Origin: Alkalibacillus almallahensis
Lineage (GTDB): Bacteria > Bacillota > Bacilli > Bacillales > Alkalibacillaceae
Direction: 5' to 3'
DNA length: 64,000 nucleotides
Assembly (NCBI RefSeq): GCF_011761495.1
Contig: NZ_JAASRU010000011.1
Span: forward strand, 1-64,000
In this document: in pieces, positions 5,794-49,621 of the stretch
Layout: every line of letters starts with the position of its first letter
Numbering within the stretch: position 1 is the first letter of the stretch
Notes under the pieces: generated by a model
Database searches by the model: none
What the model was told of the DNA's origin: nothing
What the model saw: the letters and a program-made list of their open reading frames with translations, nothing else
Translations under genes and position numbers: made by a program

Positions 5794-7842
5794 TTATTCT
5801 TTACGACGATCGTCATCTGATGCTTCATCATCTGAAGTAGTCTCATCGTTAGCTGTTTCATTTGAAACAGTCTCATCTGAGGACTCATCTTGTGATTGAA
5901 TATTAACTTGAACGTCTTGATTGTCATCTGAATCATCTTGACCATCTGTTTCAGTCTTTTCAGATGTTTGTTCAGAAGGAGTCTCATCAACCTCTTCTTC
6001 TTCGAGTGGCTCTGGTAAAACGCCATCTTCGAAAAGACCTTTAATCTGACGAGCATCAAGTGTTTCAACTTCAAGTAATGTTTTCGCAATGATTTCTAAT
6101 TGCTCTTTATGCTCTGACAAGATACTGTGAGCACGTTCGTAACAATCATTAATAATTGCTTGAACTTCTTGGTCAATCACATAAGCGATTTGATCACTGT
6201 AATTTGGTTCATTCTGAATGTCCTTACCTAAGAAGACTTGGCCTCCAGAACTACCAAATTGTAATGGACCTAACTTCTCGCTCATACCGAATTCAGTTAC
6301 CATCTTACGGGCAATGTTAGTTGAGCGTTGGAAGTCATTATGAGCGCCAGTACTTGCTTCACCGAAGATTAATTCTTCAGCAACACGACCACCTAATAAG
6401 CCAGTGATCTTATCAAGCAATTCTGGTTTCGTTTGGAAATAACGGTCTTCTTTAGGAAGCATTACCGCATAACCACCAGCTTGACCACGTGGCACGATTG
6501 TTACCTTATGAACCATATCGGCTTCATCAAGCACCATACCAATAACTGTGTGTCCACTTTCGTGGTAAGCGACAATGTTTTTCTCTTTATCAGAAATGAC
6601 ACGGCTCTTCTTGGCAGGACCTGCAATCACACGGTCAATCGCCTCATCGACGTGTTCCATTTCAATCTTCTTAGCGTCAGCACGTGCAGCAACTAAAGCT
6701 GCCTCGTTTAATAAGTTTTCTAGGTCTGCACCTGTAAATCCAGGTGTTCTTAACGCAATCGCTTTAACGTCCACTGATTCACTTAATGGTTTGTTACGTG
6801 CGTGGACTTGTAAGACTTCTTGACGTCCTTTAACGTCTGGGTTCTGTACCGGAATTTGACGGTCAAAACGACCAGGACGTAATAACGCTGGGTCAAGAAT
6901 GTCTGGGCGGTTTGTCGCCGCCATCATAATAATACCTTCATTGACACCAAAACCGTCCATTTCAACAAGTAATTGGTTTAATGTCTGTTCACGTTCGTCG
7001 TGACCACCGCCGACACCAGCGCCACGCTGACGTCCAACTGCATCAATTTCATCAATGAAAATAATACACGGTGCGTTTTTCTTCGCATTTTCGAATAAGT
7101 CACGTACACGTGACGCACCAACACCGACAAACATTTCAACGAAGTCCGAACCACTGATTGAGAAGAATGGTACACCTGCTTCACCAGCTACTGCCTTCGC
7201 AAGTAATGTCTTACCAGTACCTGGAGGGCCGACAAGTAAAACCCCTTTTGGAATACGCGCGCCCAATTCAGAGAATTTACGCGGATCCTTCAAGAACTCA
7301 ACAACTTCTACAAGCTCTTGTTTCTCTTCATCAGCACCTGCTACTTCATTAAATTTGGTCTGTTTCTTATCTTCAGTATACATCTTCGCCTTACTCTTAC
7401 CAAAGTTCATCATACGGCCACCGCCGCCTTGCATCTGGCTAAGTAAGAAGAAGAACAGGATAAAGATAATTAAAAACGGAATAAGTGTTGTGAAAAATTG
7501 CGCCCAAGCACTTGGTTCCTCAGCTGCTTGAACATCGACTAACCCTTGATCTCGAGCTGTATCCAGAACATTATTAACGATTTCTTCAGTCGCTGGAATC
7601 TCAGCACTGAATGATTCAGTTTCTCCCGTATCACCAGGCTGATATTCACCCGTTACATCATACGCAAAGTTCGTATATTGTAAGTTTAATTCTTCAATTT
7701 GGTCATTTTCTAAGACCTCTTGAAATTCATCGTAAGTGAGTTGTTCCGTTTCCGGACTCGGATTGTTCAACATTCCGATAATTCCGATGACAACTAAAAA
7801 GATTATTAAGTAAAATATGGTATTTCGGAACACCCGATTCAT
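5794..7842 (-). CDS. ftsH: ATP-dependent membrane zinc metalloprotease FtsH
   Basis: A membrane-anchored AAA+ protease for quality control, needed for sporulation in B. subtilis. Two membrane segments (about residues 10-25 and 117-136) flank an extracytoplasmic domain. Walker A GPPGTGKT (about 205-212), Walker [12 protein letters not shown] and the zinc site HESGH (about 427-431) follow. The last 65 or so residues form a very acidic, low-complexity tail rich in D, E, S and T, longer than usual. The start ATG has AGGAGG 6 nt upstream. It has its own promoter and terminator. Confidence 0.97.
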
Positions 7843-47540: not shown

Positions 47541-47707
47541 CTAATCTTCATTCGTTGATAACCCTATTTTACACGAAAAAAGTCTCAAAACACATTGCAT
47601 CAAACGGTAAATATTCATTTCGTGTTATAATAAGAATAATATAAACTGACGCGTCTATAACAAACCATTCATACGCGTAAAATCAAAGCGTTGAGGTGAT
47701 GAACTGC

Positions 47708-48628
47708 ATGGCAACTAATGCATCGATCGAACAACAATTACAACAAATACTTGATGATGACCATATCATGATTAACGAACCCTTAAGAAACCATACGTAT
47801 ACAAAACTTGGCGGCGCAGCTGACTACTTCGTCACGCCTTCCTCCTACGAAGCCGTTCAAGAAGTGGTGAAATTGGCTAACCGTGAACAACTCCCATTCA
47901 CCCTTCTCGGTAATGGATCGAATTTAATCGTCAAAGACGGTGGCATTCGCGGGATTATCTTAAGCCTGAAAGAATTAAAAGACATTACAGTCGAAGGAAA
48001 TGAAATGATTGCACAAAGTGGCGCTCGAATCATAGATGTTTCCTACCGTGCGTTAGACGAACAACTAACAGGATTAGAGTTCGCCTGCGGGATCCCCGGC
48101 ACAGTAGGAGGAGCATTGTTCATGAATGCTGGCGCATATGGAGGCGAAATCAAAGACGTCTTAAAAGAAGCCGTTGTGGTGGACCCTGATGGCAACTTAC
48201 TGACCCTTTCAGCTGATGCCTTTGACCTACAATATCGCCACAGCAACATCCCTGAAAAAGGCTATATCGTCTTAGAAGCCTTATTCGTCTTAAAACCAGG
48301 CCAATACGATAACATCAAAGCCACCGTGGATGATTTAACGTATAAACGTGAATCCAAACAACCTTTAGAATATCCATCTTGCGGCAGTGTCTTCAAGCGC
48401 CCACCTGGTTACTTTGCAGGTAAACTCATTCAAGACAGTCATTTACAAGGTAAAGGCGTCGGCGGTGCTGAAGTGTCCACTAAACATGCTGGATTTATCG
48501 TGAACAAGAATAACGCAACAGCGACGGATTACATTCAATCTATTGAACTTGTGCAAAATACAGTCAAGGAAACCTTTGGCGTTGACCTTGAACGAGAAGT
48601 TCGGATTATTGGAGAAGATCCTGAATAA
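47708..48628 (+). CDS. murB: UDP-N-acetylenolpyruvoylglucosamine reductase
   Basis: Reduces UDP-GlcNAc-enolpyruvate to UDP-MurNAc with FAD and NADPH. FAD-binding TLLGNGSNLIV, GIPGTVGGALFMNAGAYGGE, the catalytic Ser in PSCGSVFKRP and the C-terminal Glu region (FGVDLEREVRIIGE) are present; it is the shorter, type IIa form. The ATG giving MATNASIEQ is 9 nt after GAGGTG. A plus-strand gene at a site where B. subtilis has yaaN/xpaC, it may be a second murB; that needs the rest of the genome. Confidence 0.93.
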   Translation: MATNASIEQQLQQILDDDHIMINEPLRNHTYTKLGGAADYFVTPSSYEAVQEVVKLANREQLPFTLLGNGSNLIVKDGGIRGIILSLKELKDITVEGNEMIAQSGARIIDVSYRALDEQLTGLEFACGIPGTVGGALFMNAGAYGGEIKDVLKEAVVVDPDGNLLTLSADAFDLQYRHSNIPEKGYIVLEALFVLKPGQYDNIKATVDDLTYKRESKQPLEYPSCGSVFKRPPGYFAGKLIQDSHLQGKGVGGAEVSTKHAGFIVNKNNATATDYIQSIELVQNTVKETFGVDLEREVRIIGEDPE

Positions 48629-48644
48629 ACGCTCTAAATTTAAA

Positions 48645-48975
48645 AGCTTTGTTAAAGTCCGTTGTTGATATCGTGATCCACTTTCGGTGTATAGTTTAGT
48701 TTCGCTGTATGTGTTGGGAGTTTCGCTGTATCAAGCGATGGTTTCGCTGTATGTAAGCATGTTTTCGCTGTATAATGGAGAGATTTCGCTGTATAGAGCA
48801 CCAATTGCGCTGTATCATGCGCCTTTTTCGCTGTATCACTGTATCACAGCGGGATCTCGAGACACGCGCTATACCATCGACGACCCAGAAGACTAATGTC
48901 GACACCAACGCTACTCACAATTCAACAACTCAATACTTTGTTATTTAAAAATAAACACTAAACTATAACAAAGCC
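48645..48975 (-). repeat. MITE-like interspersed repeat, copy E, inverted, interior replaced by a 21-bp array
   Basis: The ends match the family in reverse orientation: AGCTTTGTTAAAGTCCGTTG with TTGATATCGTGATCC at left, and CACAATTCAACAACTC to AACAAAGCC at right. The conserved core is gone except for short remnants (ACTTTCGGTG, GATCTCGAGAC). Its place is taken by a regular array. Two short open frames cross it but look incidental. Confidence 0.8.
48700..48836 (+). repeat. Seven-unit direct repeat TTTCGCTGTAT with exact 21-bp period
   Basis: The 11-bp unit begins at 48700, 48721, 48742, 48763, 48784, 48805 (TTGCGCTGTAT) and 48826. The 10-bp spacers are all different. A period of 21 bp puts every unit on the same face of the helix. 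On the reverse strand the units translate as an IQRN heptad. Confidence 0.92.
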
Positions 48976-48978
48976 AAT

Positions 48979-49026
48979 TTAAAAGACGCAACGACTGTTA
49001 AATTTAAAGTCGTTGCGTCTTTTAAA
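48979..49026 (-). terminator. Bidirectional hairpin between murB and csfB
   Basis: A stem of 16 bp (AAAAGACGCAACGACT and complement) has T-rich flanks on both strands. It can end csfB on the minus strand and transcripts from murB on the plus strand. Confidence 0.85.
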
Positions 49027-49053
49027 TTATTCTATAAAAAATAGGAGAGGAGA

Positions 49054-49245
49054 TTACATCAACATCTGATTTGTTAACGGACGAGATTTCATTTTCTCAA
49101 CGTAATATTGATACTGCTCTTCTTCAGGATTCGTTTGAACTATTGCACGCTCGCATGACTGACAAATAAAATTCGTTAAAACATAGATTCCTTGCGCTTT
49201 CCATTGATCACACACTTGGCAGTAGTGAAAGGTCATTTGATTCAT
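49054..49245 (-). CDS. csfB: Anti-sigma-G factor Gin (CsfB)
   Basis: A small zinc protein that blocks premature SigG and late SigE activity during sporulation. Two CxxC pairs (YCQVCDQW and ICQSCERA) are in the expected places. The ATG 5 nt after GGAGGTGG gives MNQMTFHYCQVC and 63 residues (B. subtilis 64). It lies next to bofA in conserved order but is flanked on both sides by copies of the MITE-like repeat in opposite orientation. Confidence 0.92.
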   Translation of the reverse strand: MNQMTFHYCQVCDQWKAQGIYVLTNFICQSCERAIVQTNPEEEQYQYYVEKMKSRPLTNQMLM

Positions 49246-49264
49246 CGGTTCCACCTCCACTACC

Positions 49265-49320: not shown

Positions 49321-49585
49321 AGGACTGTTAAAGTATAGTGTTGATTTTCGATTGATGTAGCACTTAATTGTTGATTTGTGAGGAGCGAAGGTGGCGACTC
49401 CTGTGGGAACAGCACGTGTCTCGAGACCCCCAGAGGCCCACAGGATGTGGGTCACTTCGGCGTTTGTGATTGACGTCCGGAACTTAGCCGAAGTTCCTTT
49501 AGCTTCCGAGGAGGCTCGAGCCGTGCCCGCGGAAAGCGTCCACCGAAAGCGGATCGCAATTCAACAACGGACTTTAGCAAAGCTA
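49321..49585 (+). repeat. MITE-like interspersed repeat, copy F, with module 2
   Basis: Ends GACTGTTAAAGTATAGTG and GGACTTTAGCAAAGC; inner arms TTGTTGATTTGTGA and CGCAATTCAACAA. It carries module 2 (CCCACAGGATGTGGGTCACT to AGCCGAAGTTCC) as in copy D, without module 1. It lies between the bofA terminator and csfB. Confidence 0.88.
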
Positions 49586-49590
49586 TAAAA

Positions 49591-49621
49591 TTAAAAGCGA
49601 ATGCAATACTGCACTCGCTTT
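49591..49621 (-). terminator. Terminator of bofA
   Basis: The stem AAGCGAGTGCA / TGCATTCGCTTTT is followed by a T-containing tract on the minus strand, 14 bp after bofA. Confidence 0.75.

Follow-up and report, generated by a model that had tools for sequence, protein, structure and literature searches.

What is a strictly periodic run of short, nearly identical DNA words doing between two genes of a bacterial chromosome? The question is raised by a stretch of 64,000 nucleotides from Alkalibacillus almallahensis (NCBI RefSeq assembly GCF_011761495.1, contig NZ_JAASRU010000011.1, positions 1 to 64,000 of the forward strand), hereafter called the window, for which a first-pass annotation had reported seven 11-bp units at a constant 21-bp period. 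This description was borne out. At positions 48700-48836 of the plus strand lie seven 11-bp cores with the consensus TTTCGCTGTAT, which we counted in the window as starting at 48700, 48721, 48742, 48763, 48784, 48805 and 48826; 10-bp variable spacers separate them, and every step is exactly 21 bp. Six cores match TTTCGCTGTAT exactly, and the sixth in order (48805), TTGCGCTGTAT, carries a single mismatch. Two core-like words on the same strand stand out of register: TTTCGGTGTAT (48682-48692), 18 bp 5′ of the first core in the left part of the repeat shell that surrounds the array, and TATCACTGTAT (48834-48844), which overlaps the end of the last core at the shell-side junction. The array is not a product of chance, since the pattern CGCTGTAT-N13-CGCTGTAT gives 47 exact pairs in the 2.71-Mb genome and the same pattern read backwards gives 0. 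The window also holds a weak 15-bp tandem repeat of 3.5 copies at 5828-5880.

Among 79 units from 15 Alkalibacillus arrays, chosen with no more than two mismatches to the core, core positions 4, 5, 8, 9 and 10 are invariant (79/79). The spacers had been described as all different. This stood for their pairwise likeness, the six window spacers having a mean identity of 2.47 of 10 positions versus 2.62 in letter shuffles. Alkalibacillus spacers are nevertheless not free sequence (C in only 1 of 79 units at position 9 and again at position 10, A in 48 of 79 at position 2), and the window-array spacers are found again in the paralogs at C16 and C7. Of 94 Alkalibacillus units, 77 have TT, 8 have AA and 9 have another pair directly ahead of TCG, so that an A-tract and a T-tract seem to swap at this place, which may point to a role of DNA shape. 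In another genus with such arrays (g73), the bases before TCG are TT in 40, GT in 8, TA in 4 and AA in 4 of 62 units, and the swap is not clear.

The genes around the array are murB, gin and bofA. It is flanked on the left by murB (47696-48628, plus strand; MurB_C, 3.3e-35), whose end lies 71 bp from the first core, and on the right by Gin (csfB), the sigma-G inhibitor (49054-49260, minus strand; Gin, 1.1e-16), and thus lies between convergent genes. A near-perfect inverted repeat between these genes (48976-49028) likely serves as a two-way terminator. The repeat shell named in the first-pass annotation was confirmed: BLAST of window positions 48630-48980 returned 78 genome matches. This number includes the window's own hit and hits confined to the array, and most of the remaining ones cover the left or the right shell part. 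Both parts were delimited on the plus strand from these matches and from alignment, the left at 48630-48699, with an inverted match to 49541-49599, and the right at 48846-48975. When five array-bearing and six array-free copies were aligned, the array occupied the interior between common left and right parts, and the array-free copies had a shorter or a hairpin interior in its place. The shell is a dispersed element of the Bacillaceae-1 (RF01690) type with the array in its interior. BLAST matches and alignment place a second copy, with a hairpin interior instead of an array, at 49326-49599 of the minus strand, and this interior matches the Rfam RF01690 Bacillaceae-1 RNA (49437-49503, minus strand; 53.6 bits, gathering score 35). 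The second copy lies near the array-bearing one in inverted orientation, and the two flank gin. The scan that detected it gave no RF01690 match above the gathering score in the array-bearing window copy. At the same score, ten own loci gave three RF01690 entries at two places, C5:129.7k (contained in both L058 and L045) and L057; no match was found in four array-bearing own loci (L032-L035) or in three array-free shell loci (L049, L052, L056). Two tandem SAM riboswitches lie near the C7 array (L033, 565-677 and 769-877, minus strand).

The window array is one of 13 found in the A. almallahensis genome, twelve by the exact pair pattern and one more at C9:30.6k. The shell is present at five of them (window, C16, C7, C9:24k and C9:110k), and for seven own arrays BLAST gave no shell match. 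The arrays of the window, C16 and C7, all within the shell, have common spacers in the same order, the C9:24k array has several of these spacers in a different order, and the array at C5:86k contains near-duplicate spacers. Uniqueness to this genome, with degeneration in sister strains, had been named as a result that would refute the first reading, but the array is not unique: the exact two-core pattern, searched in a collection of 84,980 species that may leave out the window's own genome, was detected in only two stretches, both from A. salilacus DSM 16460. The congeners G001 and G003 gave no match to the exact-pair, mismatch-tolerant or degenerate patterns (G004 was covered in one search). 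For the C3:10.8k array, five stretches from G001-G004 were read at the corresponding position; they matched the locus on one side, and no 21-bp array was detected in them.

A period of 21 bp is seven codons long, and the array could in principle code short heptad-repeat peptides in an IQRN or a TAK frame. In favour of coding, none of the 12 own arrays scanned has a stop in the TAK frame (0 stops in 63 own units), and stop-free frames occur elsewhere too (three in G282 and two in G002, over 16 units each). However, 2 stops interrupt the TAK frame over 16 units of A. salilacus, 8 of the 12 own arrays lack an upstream start in it, and the N-termini differ; in the g21 arrays (G138) each of the frames contains at least 11 stops over 65 units; and both ORFs of the window are without a Pfam match above the cut-off. 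Synonymous-substitution evidence for coding had been named as the result that would overturn a DNA-level reading; the analysis gave no sign of coding, even though every own array scanned has one open frame. We rejected the coding of peptides on the A. salilacus stops, the lack of a common start and the lack of an open frame in g21, and we hold it to be exceedingly improbable.

The steps between cores bear on the same question. Successive cores were compared in 13 core sets, two of them with the Alkalibacillus core, for steps of up to 70 bp only. Besides 452 steps of 21 bp, there were 19 of 20 bp, 14 of 22 bp, 15 of 31-33 bp, 51 of 41-44 bp, 20 of 50-54 bp and 5 of 60-63 bp; the remaining ones measured 8 bp (2), 18 bp (2), 27, 47 and 48 bp (1 each). 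Nearly all steps other than 21 bp sit near multiples of the helical turn. For the 94 steps longer than 22 bp, the best period within a range of 3-22 bp was 10.35 bp (R 0.83), and R was 0.83 at 10.5 bp, 0.80 at 11 bp and 0.34 at 3 bp; after removal of the 41-44 and 62-63 bp steps (n=39), it was 0.68 at 10.5 bp and 0.38 at 3 bp. Twelve of 72 steps are multiples of 3, a count that takes in steps of 20, 22 or more than 22 bp except those of 41-44 and 62-63 bp and leaves out the 8- and 18-bp steps. Steps of 20, 22, 32 and 53 bp shift the reading frame, which argues further against coding, but depart little from the same helical face. Most of the long steps were contributed by g21 and the genome G291, whose arrays have a common layout and are partly orthologous, and these steps therefore represent few independent events. 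The g21 alignment contains 22 elements with at least five cores (L267-L304), among which the orthologs L278/L285/L295 and L273/L297 remain; these elements have a common layout of about ten cores within unrelated flanks, many with one three-turn step, and by eye the last core is of the GGACA type in 22 of 22 and the first in 14 of 22. In G291, three loci (L100, L102, L104) show two core blocks with a long gap between recognised cores (51 bp in the first, 72 bp in the other two), and by eye the gaps hold similar words that resemble CAA(A)TT.

When orthologous arrays are compared, divergence in the cores is 3.6 to 10 times lower than in the spacers. Mismatches amounted to 36/1242 (2.9%) in cores, 303/2045 (14.8%) in spacers and 1028/5481 (18.8%) in flanks for g21, to 14/260 (5.4%), 51/262 (19.5%) and 359/1691 (21.2%) for g73, and to 6/154 (3.9%), 54/141 (38.3%) and 70/577 (12.1%) for Alkalibacillus. 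These figures come from 28 pairs, which are not independent, in 9 g21, 6 g73 and 2 Alkalibacillus groups, with L272/L303, L273/L287/L297, L278/L285/L295 and L314/L323 left out; cores were chosen by similarity to the consensus, and homogenisation among copies could add to their conservation. At one Alkalibacillus locus (L007/L063), which adjoins a gene that we named mreB/mbl-like from its sequence, 48 of 81 spacer sites differ, compared with 5 of 77 core sites and 41 of 277 flank sites.

With steps near whole turns across lineages and cores conserved relative to spacers, the suggestion that the units lie two helical turns apart for a protein on one face of the DNA is the likeliest reading. The array is thus probably, if by no means surely, a chromosomal strip of putative protein-binding sites, presented every two turns on one face of the duplex. 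The predicted reader would be a cooperative DNA-binding protein, whose copies would sit two helical turns apart on one duplex face, probably touching, and we infer that the strip would not be a promoter element but would act on the chromosome (its structure, supercoiling, a boundary or segregation). It appears that arrays gain and lose units and spread by copying to new intergenic sites, in the window within the Bacillaceae-1-type element, and that spacers drift as cores are held.

The origin of the units is where the first-pass annotation fared less well, having taken the unlikeness of the spacers as proof against simple tandem duplication. Eight of the 28 ortholog pairs show an indel of exactly 21 or 42 bp, anywhere in the compared stretch and alongside indels of other sizes, and spacers of 21-bp arrays across the order range from identical to unlike. 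Together with the near-duplicate spacers at C5:86k, these indels and this graded likeness fit duplication followed by spacer drift. Template-driven expansion, offered as the other route, draws no support from any result here.

The same build occurs beyond the genus, with other cores. NCBI places Alkalibacillus in the order Caryophanales, formerly called Bacillales. Allowing up to three mismatches, a three-core pattern matched 4 of 299 genomes (the own genome, G302 with ten matches, and G255 and G276 with one each), and the matches in G302, G255 and G276 have variant cores and keep the 21-bp step. The reversed control of this search matched three genomes, of which G291 has 21-bp arrays with yet another core, and G211 and G284 look like plain tandem repeats. 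A degenerate pattern, with three core letters left free, was then tested in 397 genomes: it was found at 21 bp in 78, part of them plain tandem repeats, and at 24 bp in 4, all plain tandem repeats by eye. Counted by hand, the reversed degenerate pattern occurred in 51 of 397 genomes at 21 bp and in 3 of 397 at 24 bp, its matches being partly arrays with other cores (G002 in the window's genus, G393, G360) and partly plain repeats. With 51 genomes matched in reverse, there is no clean null at 21 bp, and the comparison singles out the period but not the TCG skeleton. We accordingly make no claim of a TCGNNNWA skeleton common to the lineages, most core sets having been found with TCG patterns and the reversed pattern matching 51 genomes against 78.

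Reading 88 pattern loci, some of which show one array twice and 30 of which stem from the reversed pattern, we found 37 plain tandem repeats, 32 intermediate cases and 19 with clearly variable spacers and conserved cores; the last come from 19 genomes, 14 genera and 10 families. A motif-blind scan for four cores of 9 bp at periods of 14-60, run over 1.05 Mb from 12 genomes plus the window, detected three arrays at 21 bp (the window, G255 and G030), two at 20 bp and one each at 39, 42, 51 and 57, with none at the remaining 41 of 47 periods. Of the three, only the one in G030 is new, because the window array was already on record and the G255 stretch had been included on account of its array. 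Other settings gave 4 at 21 bp versus single matches at 20, 42, 45 and 51 with four cores, and 3 at 21 bp versus 1 at 15 with five cores; three-core settings gave no 21-bp excess (one each at 20, 21, 42 and 63). The expectation that relatives carry the pattern therefore came true in part: the 21-bp layout exists elsewhere in the order with different cores, and the exact core pair was seen in only two Alkalibacillus genomes, the own one and that of A. salilacus.

Several genomes show variations of their own. The genus g73 (L307-L326; G392, G104) has two core types, or dialects, per genome, the TTCGCGGAAT type and the TGTGGTCGAA type, both at 21 bp. G261 (L239, L254) gave 120 matches of a 21-bp pattern, the top count in its list, with AAnnCGCTCGCC-type arrays, and in G066 (L171, about position 414; L174, about 12144) the step is 20 bp instead of 21, for example TTCGCTCAA. 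Plasmid and phage records gave no BLAST match to the array plus shell. In IMG/VR, 42 stretches matched a five-unit 21-bp pattern, with spacer conservation above 0.85 in 40, below 0.72 in 1 and between these values in 1, and 40 of the 42 are plain tandem repeats; the two-core Alkalibacillus pattern matched 32 stretches, and the five of these with a third near-core look like tandem repeats.

Placement relative to genes is far from even. From 108 arrays with at least three cores, we removed 3 that fall inside a short ORF and 4 that reach the edge of a locus; in this set the C19 array is split in two, the G149 loci, though included, gave no array under this rule, and G013 was not taken in. Of the resulting 101 arrays, 53 lie between same-direction, 41 between convergent and 7 between divergent genes, compared with 124, 28 and 59 of the 211 remaining gaps, 60 bp or longer, at these loci (Fisher p 1.6e-7 for favoured convergent and 1.2e-5 for avoided divergent gaps). 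With one array per locus group (70), the counts are 40, 27 and 3 (p 1.7e-5 convergent, 9e-6 divergent). Because gin falls below the 80-aa limit set for ORFs, the convergent placement of the window array was scored as tandem.

Location downstream of genes would also suit an RNA element, a transcribed array that binds a protein or small RNA or that folds, and the shell family is entered in Rfam as an sRNA. However, six strands of four arrays gave folding z-scores versus shuffles of 0.97, 0.35, 1.84, 0.49, -1.41 and 0.26, no Rfam match up to E 10 overlaps the array, cores are evenly oriented relative to same-direction genes (28 same, 25 opposite), and the helical steps fit duplex DNA. We give an RNA role very little credence. 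Hairpins between spacers and cores, considered for the frequent AGC seen by eye in spacers, were likewise rejected, as folding is no better than in shuffles.

The convergent and 3′ placement could also reflect arrays that promote DNA wrapping or bending, by gyrase, by an HU-like protein or through phased A/T tracts that curve the DNA, to manage supercoiling at the ends of transcription units. A/T-rich positions beside the core are consistent with this, and the REPs of E. coli are reported to be targeted by gyrase (PMC3733652). By contrast, the strongest constraint falls on a specific, lineage-specific core, which a universal wrapping enzyme would not need, and we regard wrapping as rather improbable.

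A stronger competitor, though still an unlikely one, is a selfish dispersed repeat whose cores are sites for a trans-acting transposase or recombinase that copies arrays to gene ends, with no host function. The g21 elements, with their common layout and last core amid unrelated flanks, speak for it. So does G302, where one seven-unit array occurs twice about 1.2 kb apart (L088, C11:160.7k; L092, 161.9k) with unlike flanks and, by eye, homology that ends at the outer cores. Five own arrays lie inside the MITE-like shell, and REP repeats show the same location preference (PMC3733652). Core orientation in g21 follows GC skew (34/43, and 18/22 with one per ortholog group, p=0.004), which also favours this reading, but the bias is missing in g73 (8/15, and 2/5 by group) and is weak and opposite in Alkalibacillus (4/16 on the G-rich strand). 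A general replication-strand bias was rejected on these same counts, the g21 result being suggestive. Against a purely selfish repeat, orthologous arrays keep their place across species with conserved cores, which indicates that constraint continues after insertion.

Returning to the strip of protein-binding sites, we put forward a wider and more tentative proposal. Such arrays may form a widespread class of Bacillales chromosomal sites, locked to the helix at 2, 3, 4 or 5 turns, with a core dialect for each lineage and two in some genomes. Their putative readers would be cooperative DNA-binding proteins of a fast-evolving family, by which the chromosome may be organised or marked at gene ends. 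If this holds, annotation misses, or may log as stray ORFs, conserved nucleoprotein sites that number several to a dozen or more in many genomes of a large order. The dialects would offer a natural series for finding the protein, core against core, and for following the joint shift in specificity of a DNA-binding protein and its many dispersed sites, and the helical steps make a clear, testable prediction.

We found no description of such arrays in the open-access literature searched, which leaves out most subscription journals, and comparison was made with known repeat systems. CRISPR arrays also combine regular repeats with unlike spacers; their repeats measure about 23-47 bp and their spacers about 26-40 bp, and they are accompanied by cas genes. 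We rejected a CRISPR-like array, as the units here have 11-bp cores and 10-bp spacers, and the spacers drift and are alignable between orthologs. The shell, though not the array, belongs with MITEs such as bcr1 and with RF01690, being dispersed with inverted ends; seven own arrays are without a shell match. The STAR elements of Staphylococcus aureus likewise lie between genes and consist of short direct repeats that are conserved and set apart by variable spacers, but they are not known to have a fixed helical spacing. Plasmid iterons are direct repeats about two helical turns apart, and the array likewise consists of direct repeats in helical register; unlike iterons, the arrays are dispersed over the chromosome and only about half of each unit is conserved. 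Iterons stand next to an initiator gene and a replication origin; the genes beside the window array are murB and gin, neither of them an initiator. REP repeats are linked to a HUH transposase. Like REP/BIME, the arrays are dispersed, intergenic, on the 3′ side of genes and rarely divergent (27 convergent, 40 tandem and 3 divergent of 70), with several families across genomes. REP repeats are intergenic and follow genes, chiefly where the neighbours run in the same direction or converge, and their unit is a palindrome of 20-40 bp (PMC3733652). The array cores, unlike these, are direct, non-palindromic and phased at 21 bp, and the six strands folded are not clearly better than shuffles. In our analysis, the array would work like a phased iteron array and appears to be distributed like REP repeats, and we liken it to both and assign it to neither.
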